64,000 bases of DNA. Origin: Haloarchaeobius amylolyticus. Its GTDB lineage: Archaea > Halobacteriota > Halobacteria > Halobacteriales > Natrialbaceae. Positions 2,831 through 60,637 of the stretch are shown here, piece by piece. Each line of letters opens with the position of its first letter. Position 1 is the first letter of the stretch. The position numbers and the translations under genes are program-made. The notes under the pieces are model-generated. The model was not told the DNA's origin. It did no database searches and saw nothing but the letters and a program-made list of their open reading frames with translations. The stretch lies in contig NZ_JANHDH010000002.1 of assembly GCF_026616195.1 (NCBI RefSeq), positions 248,001-312,000 on the forward strand, read 5' to 3'.

Positions 2831-5452
2831 CTAGGACCCCGTGACCGAGACCGACGTCCGGGCCGTCGCCAGCCCGACCGTCTCCAGCGGGTCGTCGCCA
2901 CTCGGCGCGACCACGGTGATCTGGTTCCGACCCTCGGCGAGCGTGACGGTCGCGTCGAAGGAGCCGTCGGAGACGGGCAGTCGGGTGGTCTCCGCGCCGG
3001 TCCTGACGACGACCTCGGCCGCGTCGGTCGTCCCCGAGAGGGACACCTCCGTCGTGTCCACGACCGGGTCGGGGAAGGTCACGTCGAGCGAGGGCGCCGG
3101 CGTCTGTTCGCCCTCGACGTAGCGCTGCTCGACGAACGCGGGCGTCTCGACCGGTTCACCCACGTCGAGGCTCCACGCGAGCCGGACGAACTGGGCCATG
3201 CTCCACGAGAGGGGCGTGGCACTGCCCGTGCCCTCGCCGAACGCCCAGCCGTACTCGGTCGGCTCCTCGCGGTCCCACACCTGCTCGGGGATCATGCGGC
3301 CTTCGTTGGCGAACCGGGCCATCGTCCGAAGCAGGTTCTGCGGGGCGAGGTCGCCCGAGGTGGTCCCCGCGCGGAGCTCGTACTCGGCGCGCTCGCCCGT
3401 GAAGATGGGCCAGAGCCGCCCCTTCGTGTTCGGTGCGACCGACCACGGCGCGCCCGATTCGCCCTCGCCGTAGCCGTCGCCGTTGTAGCGGTACCAGGCC
3501 GGGCCGCTGGGCGTGTCGACGCGGATGGTCTCGTCGACCACCGACAGCGAGTTCTGCACCAGCTCGTCGTCGGCCGGGACGATGCCGAGTCGGACGAGTT
3601 CGAGGAAGCCGGCGTCGATGACGGCGCGCTCGTCGAGCGTCGGGCCGCCGTTTGCCAGCCCGCGGTCCGCACCGTCGTCGGGGTCGCGGTCGTCGTTCAC
3701 GCGGAAGTAGTACGGCGGCTCGTGGCCGTCCGCGCCGGTCGTGGTCGCACACCACTCCGAGACGCCGTCGCGCCAGCGGTCCGCCAGGCCGAGGTAGACC
3801 AGCGCGTCCTCGCGCTCGCCCTCGTCCGCGGCCAGGCGCGCGGCGCACGCGAGGCCGGCGACCTCGGCCGCGATGGTGCTCGGCGAGAAGCCGCCCTCCT
3901 CCTCCCAGCGTTCCTGGGCCGTCTCGGGGCCGCTCCGGGCCACGTAGTCCGCGGACGCCCGGATGCTGTCGTAGCCGTAGGCCGCCTCATCGAATCCGTG
4001 CCCGTGGCGTTCGCGCAGCTGGTAGGCCATCACGAGCGGGAAGGCGACGTTGTCGAGTTGCTCGCCGCCCCAGCGGGTGCGCCCGTCGAGGTAGGTGTTC
4101 TGCGGGAGGAAGCCCTGTTCGTCCTGCTGGACCGTCAGCAGGTACTCGGTGGCCGCGATGGCCGCCTCGGCGTGCCCCATCGCGTCGAGGGCGGTGAACG
4201 CCTGGTAGAGGTCGCGCGACCAGACGAAGTTGTAGCCCACGTCGCTCGCTTTGTCGGCGATGACGCCCTTGCCCCAGGGGACCGACGGGGAGGCGATGCC
4301 GGCGCCGTGGAAGGTCTTGTCCTCGACCGCGCGCAGGGCCATAGCGGCGGTCCGGTACTGCGGTTCGAGGGCGTCGTCGCCCGCGACCGAGTCGGGGACG
4401 CGCACGTCCTCGAAGAACGACCGCCAGGAGGCGCGGTACTCGGCGCGGACCGCCTCGTAGCCGCGGTCCAGCGCGCGCCTGGCTTCCGCGGTCGCGTCCT
4501 CCGCGGCGGCGTCCTGCACGAAGCCGATGGCGGCGGTGGTCTCGGTGCTGCCGGAGCCGAGTCGCCCGGCGAGGACGAGGTTCCCCTCGGCGGAATCGCT
4601 CGGGTCGAGCGCCTCGCCTCGCTGGACGAGCGCCATCGCGGACTCGTCCTTCACGCCGGCGGCGGTCGCCCAGTCGAAGCCGTCGGCGGCCGCCACGCTC
4701 GCGGCGACCACGTAGGGGTTCCCGTCCTCGTCGAGCACCGGCCCGCCGGTCGGGGCGTCCTCGGCCGCCAGCGCGTAGCCGTCGCCGTCTGTGACCCTGA
4801 CGCCGGCGTCGCCCGCGGTCGCCGCCGAGATGGCCGGGCGCGCGACGAGGTAGAGGTCGAACTCGTCGGCGGCGTCGAAGGCCACGTCCATGAGGATGGC
4901 GTCGCCGGCGGGGTCGGCGGCGTACTCGACCTGCAGCGACCAGTCGCGGTCGTCGCTCGCGGCGACCTCGTGGCGGTAGAGCAGCGCGTCGTCTGCGGCG
5001 GGGACGACCCGGCGCTCGACCGGGTCGTCGTCGCGCCGACTCTGGTCGTGGCTCCGGGCGACGTAGCCCTCGCCGTCGGTCACGAGGAAGTCCACGGTCC
5101 GGAAGTGCATCAGGTCGACGCGCGGGAAGCGCGGCTCGGTGAGTGCGCCCGCCGTCAGCGTGAACCAGACGCGCGAGGACTCGTCGGCGGCGTGGTCCGC
5201 CACCGTGCCGAGCCCGTACTTCTCGCCGGTCGTCCAGAAGGGCGCGAGTTCGACCGGGTCGAGTTCCGGTGTCGCGGTCGTCGTCCCGGTCCCCGTGCCG
5301 GCTCCCGCCGTGGTCCCGGTGTCGGCCGTGGTCCCACTGCCGTCGCTCTGGCCGTTGCAGCCCGCGAGGCCGACCGCCGCGACCCCGCCGAGCGAGCCCA
5401 GCAGGGCGCGCCGCGTCGACCCGGACCGGTCGTGTTCGCTCTCGTCACTCAT
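2831..5452 (-). CDS. Exported glucan 1,4-alpha-glucosidase (GH15), lipoprotein
   Basis: An 873-residue secreted enzyme that should release glucose from alpha-glucan ends outside the cell. The chosen start gives a Tat signal (STRRALLGSLGGVAAVGLAG then Cys), i.e. a lipoprotein, then a Thr/Gly linker. Next come a glucodextranase-type N-terminal beta-sandwich (around residues 70-330), the GH15 alpha/alpha barrel (about 350-760) and a C-terminal beta domain (about 775-873, starting FPDPVVDTTEVSLSG). Candidate catalytic acids are the Glu in RWEEEGGFSPST and the Glu in IPEQVWDRE. The gene faces away from the MalK gene across a 108-base divergent promoter region. The product probably supplies substrate to the ABC importer. 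Confidence 0.9.
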   Translation of the reverse strand: MSDESEHDRSGSTRRALLGSLGGVAAVGLAGCNGQSDGSGTTADTGTTAGAGTGTGTTTATPELDPVELAPFWTTGEKYGLGTVADHAADESSRVWFTLTAGALTEPRFPRVDLMHFRTVDFLVTDGEGYVARSHDQSRRDDDPVERRVVPAADDALLYRHEVAASDDRDWSLQVEYAADPAGDAILMDVAFDAADEFDLYLVARPAISAATAGDAGVRVTDGDGYALAAEDAPTGGPVLDEDGNPYVVAASVAAADGFDWATAAGVKDESAMALVQRGEALDPSDSAEGNLVLAGRLGSGSTETTAAIGFVQDAAAEDATAEARRALDRGYEAVRAEYRASWRSFFEDVRVPDSVAGDDALEPQYRTAAMALRAVEDKTFHGAGIASPSVPWGKGVIADKASDVGYNFVWSRDLYQAFTALDAMGHAEAAIAATEYLLTVQQDEQGFLPQNTYLDGRTRWGGEQLDNVAFPLVMAYQLRERHGHGFDEAAYGYDSIRASADYVARSGPETAQERWEEEGGFSPSTIAAEVAGLACAARLAADEGEREDALVYLGLADRWRDGVSEWCATTTGADGHEPPYYFRVNDDRDPDDGADRGLANGGPTLDERAVIDAGFLELVRLGIVPADDELVQNSLSVVDETIRVDTPSGPAWYRYNGDGYGEGESGAPWSVAPNTKGRLWPIFTGERAEYELRAGTTSGDLAPQNLLRTMARFANEGRMIPEQVWDREEPTEYGWAFGEGTGSATPLSWSMAQFVRLAWSLDVGEPVETPAFVEQRYVEGEQTPAPSLDVTFPDPVVDTTEVSLSGTTDAAEVVVRTGAETTRLPVSDGSFDATVTLAEGRNQITVVAPSGDDPLETVGLATARTSVSVTGS

Positions 5453-57498: not shown

Positions 57499-58915
57499 TA
57501 AAATCACCCAATTGCTGCTGCTGACTATCCGTATCTCGAGTTGTGAGCTCTTCTTTATCGCCTGGAGACCGTTTGTTTACAACAATCTCTGTGATTTTTC
57601 TGAAACCGATTGCCTGTCCTGAGGTGTCCTTGTGCTTATTATGGATATTGAGAATTCGCCGCCAGTGCTTGTACTCACTGTGTGCTTGACTATTGTTGTA
57701 GCTATTCTGGTTGAATCGGTGGTGAAGTCTACCTTTTTGATCTCCCCGTATCAACGTGTGTTTTTTGCCGTTCTTTGTGAAATGGTTCTTCACTAAGACT
57801 GCGAGACAGAGGTCGCCGTCGAATGAAAGTAATTGCAACTGAGCAGCACGGTGACGAACGAAGGGTGAAGACCCATTAGTATATGCTTTCGAAACCAGCT
57901 GTCCTTTGATGTCTTTTTTGTCCAACTCCAGCGTGGGATGTTCGAACATCAAGAAATGCTTCCCGCGATACTTGAATGCGACTGGATTGTCCGGCTTGTT
58001 TGTTTCAACGAACACTCGCGATATCTCTCGCAATAACAGGACTTTAGCAGTATCAATATGGTTGGGATCTTCCATCCATCCACTGAATGAAACCGGAGAA
58101 ACGGTTTCCATCTTCGTCACTTTCTTGATTATATCCGGGAAGTCCTCTGGTGGTCGAAGCGAATAGACTTTGTTCGATTCGAACCAGAAGGGTTGAATTA
58201 GCGGAAGTTGCAGTCGAACTGCTTCTTCATTGTAATTTGGGACATCGACATCCCCAATGTAGATCTTTTGAGGAAGGTCGTTGATTTCTGCAAAGTTTGG
58301 TTCAAGTGGCTCGGTTTCGTTAATCGGTTCACGTTCACTGGTGAACCTCTCATCGAAATCGTATCTATTGCTCTTTTCGAGTTGGTCTGTCTCCATCCGG
58401 AGTACCTCGTACGTTGCAGGATGGACCGTCACATACTCACTGATGAATTCGCGAAACGTTTCATAATCGTAACTCAGCACCTTCTCACGCTGTGCGTCAG
58501 CAAGATCGTCGTTCTTCGTTACGCGGTCGTAGAACTCCTCGACCAATTCATCTTTTTGGTATGGAATATCAAATACAGCACGCCACTTGTTCGGAGCCGC
58601 GATCTCCCGGATGAATATGTGTAGTTCGAATGGCTCGGCTGCTGCCCTTTCCTGAAACTCGATAAGGTAGCTGGCGAATTCTCGTAGGAAATCGCTATTA
58701 GTCCGACTGAGTTTGGAATATTTTGCTTCAACCCAGATATCGAGACTCCCGTGTTCGTAAGTCCTCCTAAAGATTTGGTCTACAGTCGAATTGTCGTCCC
58801 TCGAGTCGCCAATATAGTCATACCCACGTGCTTCCCAATATTCACGAATTTGTTGCTTGTAGCTCTCTCCGTGTTCTGCACTTTTTTCCCGCCCACCTTG
58901 GTGATTCTGGAACAT
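57491..58915 (-). CDS. DREN-APAZ nuclease partner of short pAgo (SPARDA-type)
   Basis: A 474-residue two-domain effector. Residues 15-130 form a PD-(D/E)XK nuclease fold: helix with GESYKQQIREYW, then D59-x3-E63-x-K65 in LDIWVEAKYSKL. Residues 205-450 match the APAZ domain, with FVRHRAAQLQLLSFDG and VKNHFTKNGKK, which replaces the missing N-PAZ part of the Argonaute. In bacterial SPARDA the pair forms a complex that on target recognition cuts DNA without discrimination and kills the cell. The gene comes first in the operon and its stop overlaps the pAgo start. It is Lys-rich and less acidic than the surrounding proteome, and the DNA is AT-rich, suggesting recent acquisition. Confidence 0.88.
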   Translation of the reverse strand: MFQNHQGGREKSAEHGESYKQQIREYWEARGYDYIGDSRDDNSTVDQIFRRTYEHGSLDIWVEAKYSKLSRTNSDFLREFASYLIEFQERAAAEPFELHIFIREIAAPNKWRAVFDIPYQKDELVEEFYDRVTKNDDLADAQREKVLSYDYETFREFISEYVTVHPATYEVLRMETDQLEKSNRYDFDERFTSEREPINETEPLEPNFAEINDLPQKIYIGDVDVPNYNEEAVRLQLPLIQPFWFESNKVYSLRPPEDFPDIIKKVTKMETVSPVSFSGWMEDPNHIDTAKVLLLREISRVFVETNKPDNPVAFKYRGKHFLMFEHPTLELDKKDIKGQLVSKAYTNGSSPFVRHRAAQLQLLSFDGDLCLAVLVKNHFTKNGKKHTLIRGDQKGRLHHRFNQNSYNNSQAHSEYKHWRRILNIHNKHKDTSGQAIGFRKITEIVVNKRSPGDKEELTTRDTDSQQQQLGDFND

Positions 58916-58960
58916 GAAAACGGTATTCTAGTGTGTGTCCCTCAAGTAACAAGACAGGGA

Positions 58961-58968
58961 ATATAAAA
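58961..58968. promoter_or_regulatory. TATA-like element in the divergent SPARDA/PIN-unit promoter region
   Basis: ATATAAAA lies about 46 bases before the DREN-APAZ start (58915, minus) and 56 before the plus-strand start at 59024. The 108-base gap must hold both promoters, but which gene this element serves cannot be told. Confidence 0.35.
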
Positions 58969-59023
58969 CACTACCAAGGAATGGAAAATCTACAAGTGTA
59001 TCCTGGCATAACAGTTCTTAAAG

Positions 59024-59887
59024 ATGGACTCTGACACGAATCAAATTAACCTTGACGACGTGGCCGCAATCCTGTTTGAGGAATTCGATCGGCCTTCCAC
59101 AATGAGTCCAAAAGCGTTCTATAAACTCACCTATTTCATTAATAAGAACCTTCTCTCAAGAGGGTACGAAACTGATATTGACTATTTCTGGTACAAATAC
59201 GGGACTATGACTGCAACAGCGGGTAGTTCCATCACGATTGAGCCATCTGGAGAGAGATCTGAGGTGCTGTGCTCTACCACGTTGGATGAGATATCCATTA
59301 CTTCAGAAACTGAAAAAGAGATTCGATCGGTGACAAGAGAGGTCTTACAGGAGTATGAACGATTGAAAACAGAGGGGCTGACTGAGCGGATGTATAAAGA
59401 CGCTCCATATGATTTTCAGCGAGAATACCGGAAGCTGGACACTACTATCCAGACAGAGATACAAGTACATGGCGAAAATGAGACTGAATTCGACCGAGAG
59501 ACTATACGAGGACAGGTTAACGACTTTATAGATGCCTTCCCGGAAGAAGAATTCAGTGAGTATTTAAATGACCTCTATCTCTGGTACGATCTTCTATCAA
59601 CCACACTCGATGATAACTCTGTGAATGTCGGTCAGGTTGAAGACATCGCGGAAATCTTCTGGACAATTATCATGCTGGACTTGGGGACTGGACCAGAGAC
59701 CGGTATTGGTCCGAAAGAGTTCGCAAGGGAACTCGGAATTGATGACCCATATGATCTCCAAGGTTACCTGAGTTACCGACTCCAGCAATTGGAGGGTGAG
59801 CATCTTAAAATAGAACAGCCTCCAGATTTCACGGCTGAAGCAGCAGACGCGGTGATGGTGTCTCAATTAGACTTTGCAGAAATTTGA
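59024..59887 (+). CDS. Unrecognised protein paired with a PIN-domain protein
   Basis: A 287-residue acidic, mostly helical protein. Residues 27-62 (MSPKAFYKLTYFINKNLLSR and DIDYFWYKYGTM) faintly recall the helix pair of Panacea/DUF4065 antitoxins, but this is weak. It ends 6 bases before the PIN gene, so the two form an operon. It may be an antitoxin, adaptor or regulator of the PIN protein. It is divergent from the SPARDA operon with a 108-base shared promoter region. Confidence 0.6.
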   Translation: MDSDTNQINLDDVAAILFEEFDRPSTMSPKAFYKLTYFINKNLLSRGYETDIDYFWYKYGTMTATAGSSITIEPSGERSEVLCSTTLDEISITSETEKEIRSVTREVLQEYERLKTEGLTERMYKDAPYDFQREYRKLDTTIQTEIQVHGENETEFDRETIRGQVNDFIDAFPEEEFSEYLNDLYLWYDLLSTTLDDNSVNVGQVEDIAEIFWTIIMLDLGTGPETGIGPKEFARELGIDDPYDLQGYLSYRLQQLEGEHLKIEQPPDFTAEAADAVMVSQLDFAEI

Positions 59888-59893
59888 ACGCGA

Positions 59894-60637
59894 ATGTCAA
59901 ATTACTACTTAGATACGAACGTACTGATTGGCCATTGTTTCCTACAAAACCGCTGGCAAGACCACACTGATAGACTCTTTTCCACTAATAATACCCTCCA
60001 CACTAGCGAGATTGTTGTTTATGAATATTGCGTGAAGGACAGTCCTGGACGACCAGAAAGTGAGACTACAATTGACTGGTCTTCAACTGATGGGGTATTC
60101 GGGACCATACAGCGCAAAATCCGAAAAGGGAAACGGTATACGGAACTTGAGCTACGGAAACTTGATCATGATGAGGTAACTCCTGAGAAGGTTGCGGAGT
60201 TGGTCATCGAAAAGTTTGACATCCAAGACGAAGTAAAAGAAAAAGTCACTCGTCACTTCGTCAATCGGCTACCCTACGATTGCGACAGGAAAGATGCTAG
60301 AAAAGCTGTTGACAAACTTGTCCATACAATCACATCAACCGCGAAGGACCGAAAATCAGAACTTGCTGAGCGAGTCCAATTCCACCGCCGTGCACAAAAC
60401 CATCGCTCAGTCGAAGACCAATTACGACGTTTGATTTATCACGATGACGAGTCCTACGGCCCAGATGCAGCAGTCCTAACCGACGCGTTCGATCTGAAAC
60501 AGAGGGGCATCGTAGAGCGGGTTGTGACGGGTGACAAGGGTGATATATATTTAAATCTGAACGAGATTGACGCCATTACAGGACTCACTATCTTATATCT
60601 CAAAGATGAGTTCGCCAATCAAGAAGGACAGTCTTGA
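59894..60637 (+). CDS. PIN-domain protein with long helical insertion
   Basis: A 247-residue protein. Four acidic positions of a PIN ribonuclease fit: D7 (YYLDTNVLIG), E44 (EIVVYEYC), D191 (YGPDAAVLTDAF) and D214 (VVTGDKGDIYL). A normal PIN domain is about 130 residues. Here residues 55-180 form a long charged helical insertion. It is likely a metal-dependent nuclease that cuts RNA, and the toxin or effector of a two-gene unit with the preceding gene. No VapB-type antitoxin is seen. Confidence 0.75.
   Translation: MSNYYLDTNVLIGHCFLQNRWQDHTDRLFSTNNTLHTSEIVVYEYCVKDSPGRPESETTIDWSSTDGVFGTIQRKIRKGKRYTELELRKLDHDEVTPEKVAELVIEKFDIQDEVKEKVTRHFVNRLPYDCDRKDARKAVDKLVHTITSTAKDRKSELAERVQFHRRAQNHRSVEDQLRRLIYHDDESYGPDAAVLTDAFDLKQRGIVERVVTGDKGDIYLNLNEIDAITGLTILYLKDEFANQEGQS

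Follow-up and report, generated by a model that had tools for sequence, protein, structure and literature searches.

A two-gene operon head to head with a SPARDA-like Argonaute operon

In the window, that is, the whole 64,000-nucleotide stretch of Haloarchaeobius amylolyticus DNA analysed here, two genes on the same strand, P0001 and P0002, lie 6 bp apart as a tight operon with the putative antitoxin gene first. P0004, in the neighbouring Argonaute (pAgo) operon, starts at 58915 on the minus strand, divergently to P0001 (Table 1). The layout agrees with the original prediction, which had placed a 287-residue protein and a PIN-domain protein at this site and given them a 108-base promoter region in common with a SPARDA operon: both ORFs are present, and the segment between the two operons is of that length. 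A further gene on the same strand, P0005 (60775-62487, 570 aa), begins 137 bp downstream of the PIN gene and falls outside the recurrent cassette described below. It had no Pfam or PADLOC match, its relatives occur on haloarchaeal and rhizobial plasmids, and its C-terminal RIDRAH resembles, as judged by eye, a HEPN-type motif.

Table 1. Positions of the pair and of the adjoining SPARDA-like operon in the window.
Feature	Coordinates	Strand	Description	Evidence
P0001	59024..59887	+	287 aa, Panacea-like putative antitoxin	ORF, AlphaFold2, hhalign, Foldseek
P0002	59894..60637	+	247 aa, PIN-domain putative RNase toxin, helical insertion	ORF, Pfam, AlphaFold2, PDB, conservation
Divergent intergenic region, pair vs REase-APAZ gene	58916..59023	.	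108 bp	ORF coordinates
P0004	57491..58915	-	474 aa, PD-(D/E)xK nuclease-APAZ, SPARDA-like operon	PADLOC
P0003	56086..57507	-	473 aa, short pAgo (MID-PIWI), PIWI catalytic positions substituted	PADLOC, PDB matches

We class the neighbouring operon as SPARDA-like, in keeping with that prediction, because P0003 and P0004 match PADLOC models (pAgo class I, E=1.6e-149, and Aga_REase_Archaea, E=1.3e-72, respectively), the best PDB matches of P0003 are short pAgos (e.g. 9qbp and 9jsb), its PIWI domain is substituted (GIS replaces GLD and HKTSRF replaces HRDGKF), and D46, E63 and K65 of P0004 are kept in 29/29 homologues. Like SPARDA (a short pAgo with DREN-APAZ; PMC12205087), it joins in one operon an inactive short pAgo, of the same pAgo family, and a PD-(D/E)xK-APAZ protein; in most loci, the REase-APAZ and pAgo genes overlap or are a few bases apart. 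Unlike SPARDA, the haloarchaeal version has two extra genes head to head with this operon, whereas no member of either pair family was found near four bacterial relatives (L218-L221; Bradyrhizobium, Methylosinus, Novosphingobium and Methylomonas), and core SPARDA activity therefore need not depend on the pair. Other traits of SPARDA, namely the sensing of DNA by means of RNA guides, the formation of filaments and a collateral nuclease activity, are putative here.

Recurrence of the pair with pAgo in haloarchaea

Across 391 haloarchaeal genomes, high-scoring relatives of P0001 and relatives of P0002 adjoin each other, and the pair recurs as a unit rather than only as unrelated genes: 36 loci were found in 35 genomes, counting the window's locus and the neighbourhoods of 35 further ones. 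The recurrence near pAgo for which the original prediction had proposed a search is evident, since a pAgo gene adjoins the pair at 35 of the 36 loci and the last (in genome G235) retains a fragment of the APAZ gene. The pAgo and APAZ genes lie on the far side of P0001 in nearly all of the 35 further loci, and where all four genes are intact the head-to-head divergent layout is invariant (29/29 loci), with a spacing of mostly 91-167 bp between longest-ORF starts. Counted by genome, 32 have the pair together with this pAgo clade, three the pair only and one the pAgo only (n=391; Fisher p=2e-42). Around 16 representative loci, out to 8 kb, these four families alone recur (at 16, 16, 15 and 14 loci), the next most frequent family being present at three.

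Linkage between pair and pAgo is held over a divergence reaching ~35-37% mean identity, and dN/dS for P0001 and P0002 is 0.05-0.15 in close pairs. Protein distances of the pair co-vary with those of pAgo and APAZ (r 0.86-0.93, and 0.95 for pAgo with APAZ; 14 representatives), in Mantel correlations that include the shared ancestry of the whole locus, uncorrected for common inheritance. Many copies are plasmid-borne, with 19 plasmid records carrying the pair; pNG600 of Haloarcula marismortui, a tractable carrier, has the complete set of four. In the annotation of that plasmid (NC_006394.1; L156:4536-5333), the PIN gene is labelled hypothetical and starts at 4701, 55 codons downstream of the homologous start at 4536, which drops the catalytic D7. 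We also considered the pair as a virus-borne element and rejected this, as P0002 had no match in phage records and no P0001 match was confirmed in IMG/VR.

Loci with broken or missing parts

No locus with intact REase-APAZ and pAgo genes but without the pair was seen in the sampled haloarchaea. Among the haloarchaeal loci where a pAgo of this clade lacks the pair, that of Halorubrum lacusprofundi (L139) retains only residues 434-471 of P0004 and two others (L214 and L215) only residues 352-469; a fourth (L140, in Halolamina sp. CBA1230, G074) has no P0004 and encodes a P0003-clade pAgo whose N-terminal half differs. These exceptions support the rule, for the pAgo genes without the pair are also without a full REase-APAZ gene. 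At L140 (7559-11313), a PLD-like gene was observed upstream of pAgo, and a DUF7437 helix-turn-helix gene and a gene that is PIN-like by eye downstream of it; this locus is perhaps another combination of nuclease and pAgo.

A further exception of this kind is halophilic archaeon DL31 (plasmid phalar01; L216 and L217), in which the four-gene cassette is cut within P0004, near the REase/APAZ boundary, into residues 1-141 with an intact pair and residues 137-473 with an intact pAgo; the halves are 284 kb apart and each has IS4 transposase genes beside it. The converse situation also occurs, insertions having disrupted P0004 or pAgo at L092 and L095, where the pair is intact. The pair can thus persist without a working pAgo, being intact at L092, L095 and in DL31 with broken pAgo or APAZ genes. 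In G235 (L096:2579-4207), P0004 is cut off at residue 181 (residues 1-181 are kept), the PIN gene is intact and P0001 is frameshifted, either through a sequencing error or because an orphan PIN gene is tolerated.

P0002 is a putative PIN-fold toxin

Taken singly, P0002 matches Pfam PIN (PF01850) below the cut-off (E=0.0088), and within its family the Pfam PIN domain is found in 17/36 members (best 4e-5). Its AlphaFold2 model (pLDDT 91.7) has VapC toxins as top Foldseek matches in the PDB (probability up to 1.00, TMt 0.61; Foldseek E-values for P0001 and P0002 all exceed 0.001), so that the PIN assignment made in the original prediction holds at the level of fold and family. The insertion described there as 125 residues long is real and is modelled as five helices between residues 68 and 182. 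Relatives without pAgo carry it too, in a shorter form, which makes the insertion a feature of the family as a whole, independent of the link to pAgo. Both acidic residues that had been singled out for mutation are conserved (D7 in 28/29 sequences, with one E; D214 in 29/29). E44 and D191 are conserved too, in 28/29 (the other sequence having D) and 29/29, respectively. P0002 is accordingly described here as a putative endoribonuclease toxin, and we infer RNA cutting and toxicity from these features.

With VapBC modules the pair shares the PIN fold, the conserved acids and a partner gene directly upstream; it differs from them in the helical insertion of ~115-125 residues and in P0001, whose fold may be Panacea-like and in which no DNA-binding domain of VapB type was recognised. 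Membership of VapBC was rejected, P0001 not being VapB-like (no such Pfam or NCBIfam domain and a different predicted fold).

P0001 is remotely Panacea-like

The original prediction had assigned the 287-residue protein to no family, and single-sequence look-up in Pfam, NCBIfam, PADLOC, PHROGs and PDB sequences indeed gave nothing usable. The Panacea domain (PF13274) did not score above its cut-off for P0001 or among the matches listed for its 35-member family, and had no match in the window's genome. Profile comparison nevertheless led to a different answer. The P0001 family alignment was compared by hhalign with eight annotated SocA/Panacea antitoxins, a target picked after the motif had been noticed, and gave 87.7% probability (E 3.4e-6) with the whole domain covered, rising to 90.2% (E 1.5e-6) when further pAgo-free members were added; reversed profiles reached 0.1-0.3%, and none of 200 column shuffles did as well. 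The match places residues ~5-130 of P0001 along the entire Panacea domain, the C-terminal half that comes after them being helical, and aligns the motifs KLLYF with KLLYY, YGTV with GPVV and LTDxMYxDAPY with LTHxExPW; some pAgo-free relatives of P0001 themselves read YRHGPVV. Because the pAgo-linked members by themselves reach 22%, the Panacea link is moderate and draws on the wider family.

Foldseek searches of the P0001 model (AlphaFold2, pLDDT 88.7) against BFVD found a named phage Panacea protein (probability 0.77, TMt 0.51) and unnamed phage proteins of 145-147 aa, a size typical of Panacea (0.99 and 0.90), all with E > 0.05. Its best PDB fold match is DarTG (7yk3 chains B/D; probability 0.96-0.97, E=0.013, TM-score 0.27-0.39, rmsd 13 A), where the matched chains are probably, judging from their length, the toxin-binding domain of DarG. 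That the DarG antitoxin is the closest PDB fold is a hint of likeness to DarTG, in contrast to which no DarT homologue is present in the window's genome; P0001 is a tentative candidate for a DarG homologue, with a weak fold match and no sequence support. We conclude, with moderate confidence and from sequence profiles, that P0001 is remotely related to the Panacea/SocA antitoxin domain, in place of the earlier 'no family', and term it Panacea-like rather than a family member because the Pfam cut-off is not reached.

PanAT modules (Panacea/SocA, DUF4065; PMC8832971; NetFlax, PMC10440598) are among the known systems closest to the pair: these too are two-gene, mostly antitoxin-first operons with little or no gap, their complete antitoxin domain aligns with the N-terminal part of P0001, and PIN/VapC-like nucleases are among the published toxins of the network. 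The pair departs from them in that P0001 escapes detection by Pfam and carries a further, helical half, and in that its partner is a 247-aa PIN protein with an insertion and the linkage to an Argonaute system is fixed.

Relatives without pAgo and a second, split pAgo lineage

Haloarchaea and other classes of the phylum also have related pairs with the antitoxin gene first and no pAgo, most of them among ordinary chromosomal genes. In the P0001 tree, a single branch (100/99) separates the pAgo-linked proteins from the free ones. Two of the free pairs adjoin DISARM or DISARM-like genes: one (L104:4895-6540, in G141) lies inside a DISARM locus, flanked by genes for a DrmA helicase (PADLOC E=5e-164) and a HEAT-repeat/DrmE-like protein, and the other (L108:5700-7362, in G124) between genes for a DrmD/BrxH-like SNF2 helicase and a DUF1156/Hma-like (HmaB-like) methylase. 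From these loci, the toxin-antitoxin-type pair appears to have joined defence systems more than once.

Two loci taken at first as pairs without pAgo (L076 and L084) were rejected as such, as a divergent pAgo protein is encoded downstream in the same operon. There, and on plasmid pMBLA003601 of Haloplanus rallus, a single operon encodes a P0001-like protein, a P0002-like protein, a 330-aa protein, a 436-aa pAgo and a protein of 430-440 aa, with pair and pAgo collinear rather than divergent. This long-B-like pAgo, found in 2/391 genomes, is nearest to the long pAgos of RsAgo/EcAgo type (we take entry 5awh/6d8a to be RsAgo), and the P0001 proteins encoded with it form a 100/100 clade among the pAgo-linked ones. 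Because its PIWI catalytic positions are substituted, and with no REase or other nuclease domain recognised in the operon, PIN is the only nuclease recognised in this lineage, which provides the best hint that PIN is an effector. The 430-440 aa protein ends the operon in all three loci (L084:5120-6418, L157:11034-12350 and L076:4941-6257); the L084 copy had no Pfam match and the L157 copy no Pfam or PADLOC match.

The pair as a probable part of the haloarchaeal pAgo system

Of the separate toxin-antitoxin-like unit that the original prediction envisaged as one option, beside an accessory module under shared control, the toxin-antitoxin-like part is supported, given the PIN fold, the Panacea-like partner, the antitoxin-first order and the pAgo-free relatives, and the separateness is not. 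Since this clade's pair is accompanied by pAgo at virtually all of its loci, a module of the pAgo system describes it better, and the pair is very probably of toxin-antitoxin type and an integral part of that system. That it serves as a second effector arm fired by the pAgo branch is a more tentative proposal, which we place slightly short of even odds. Building on what is directly seen (a conserved four-gene unit, predicted folds, conserved active-site residues and the relation to pAgo-free pairs), the explanation that we favour, with a probability of roughly 0.5, is that an antitoxin-PIN RNase module was taken into the pAgo defence of haloarchaea as an integral part and second effector arm; that P0002 is toxic, that P0001 neutralises it and that the pAgo complex triggers it are what we infer here. 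P0002 would be a PIN-fold endoribonuclease, bound and restrained by the Panacea-like P0001, and in haloarchaea this module would have become a fixed part of the four-gene SPARDA-like Argonaute system, besides joining the pAgo of the second lineage. Once guide-loaded pAgo encounters the DNA of an invader, the system would assemble and fire, and the P0001-P0002 complex would be disturbed, either through direct contact or because P0001 is lost while the nucleic acids and protein synthesis of the cell break down. The freed PIN nuclease could then cut cellular RNA, so that the nuclease arm would be joined by one that stops translation.

In the main rival of the effector-arm reading, the pair acts as an ordinary toxin-antitoxin system: a cell would pay for losing the pAgo locus, which is often on a plasmid, and the pair would have no role in sensing or executing defence. 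Such an addiction or stabilisation module would account for the many plasmid-borne copies (the 19 plasmid records), for the intact pairs beside broken pAgo or APAZ genes (L092, L095 and L217) and for pair-less pAgo loci being rare and truncated on the pair side. It should, however, be exchangeable with other toxin-antitoxin pairs, and instead one family and one geometry have been kept to the identity limit given above, and the pair also lies in one operon with a second pAgo lineage. Addiction explains the survival of the pair and its plasmid location, and less well the exclusive, lasting linkage, and we regard it as rather unlikely. Persistence of the pair where pAgo is broken bears as well on a guard arrangement of the CreTA kind. 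In CreTA, the Cas effector silences a pair of RNAs. CreTA guards CRISPR-Cas (cited in PMC11442185) and shares with the present case the notion that a toxin-antitoxin pair can be bound to defence, but here both members are proteins; a strict guard, in which pAgo would be needed to silence the toxin, is disfavoured because the pair is intact in L092, L095 and DL31.

Instead of acting as the effector arm that we favour, the PIN nuclease, held and aimed by P0001, might cut cellular or invader transcripts into RNA guides for pAgo. PIN nucleases as a class leave 5'-phosphate ends, which counts in favour of this idea, as does the presence of the pair beside two pAgo lineages whose remaining components are not alike, as expected of a shared guide source. 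Small guide RNAs are, moreover, what a SPARDA-type short pAgo uses (PMC12205087). One could picture P0001 holding PIN until foreign transcripts appear, after which PIN would cut them into 5'-phosphorylated RNAs as guides for both kinds of pAgo, SPARDA-like and split long-B-like, a scheme to which we give a small chance. The bacterial SPARDA relatives checked have no such pair nearby, related pairs exist without pAgo, some of them with DISARM-type genes, where guides are not known to be needed, and the partner resembles an antitoxin, all of which makes guide production improbable. If it were true, short pAgos would have a dedicated guide-biogenesis enzyme, and toxicity would be a by-product of its unrestrained state.

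Less probable again is a regulatory pair, in which P0001, with P0002, would bind the 108-bp region and set the expression level of the pAgo genes on its other side, much as many antitoxins regulate the operon that encodes them. The strict head-to-head layout and the short common intergenic region would suit such a role, but a search of this region and its homologues revealed no operator-like motif common to all groups, only close relatives being alignable, no DNA-binding domain was recognised in P0001 or its family (Pfam/NCBIfam), and in the second lineage pair and pAgo are collinear. Chance neighbourhood with no functional link, for which nothing more than the general clustering of defence genes speaks, is excluded by the Fisher test, and the same layout in 29/29 loci and the lack of any other recurrent neighbour weigh against it too.

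Relation to previous work and significance

No paper on pAgo combined with PIN or Panacea was found in a search of open-licence literature. PIN is absent from the texts of Makarova 2009 (PMC2743648) and Ryazansky 2018 (PMC6299218). The latter, which surveyed the surroundings of pAgo genes on a large scale, counted as operon members only genes on the strand of pAgo (PMC6299218), a definition by which the divergent pair was likely missed. A haloarchaeal pAgo paper (PMC11442185) describes long-A pAgo with PLD proteins. On the toxin-antitoxin side, the Panacea papers (PMC8832971, PMC10440598) report many toxins, with PIN nucleases in the wider network, and the network paper (PMC10440598) does not mention Argonaute.

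Short pAgo systems have been described as two genes with one effector, whereas the haloarchaeal version has constant third and fourth genes. These form a toxin-antitoxin-type module that is constant across haloarchaea, over deep divergence and with two pAgo lineages, and that would link Argonaute immunity with the Panacea/PIN toxin-antitoxin field. The finding makes testable two roles for such a module, a toxin-antitoxin pair fired by pAgo or a PIN nuclease supplying guides.
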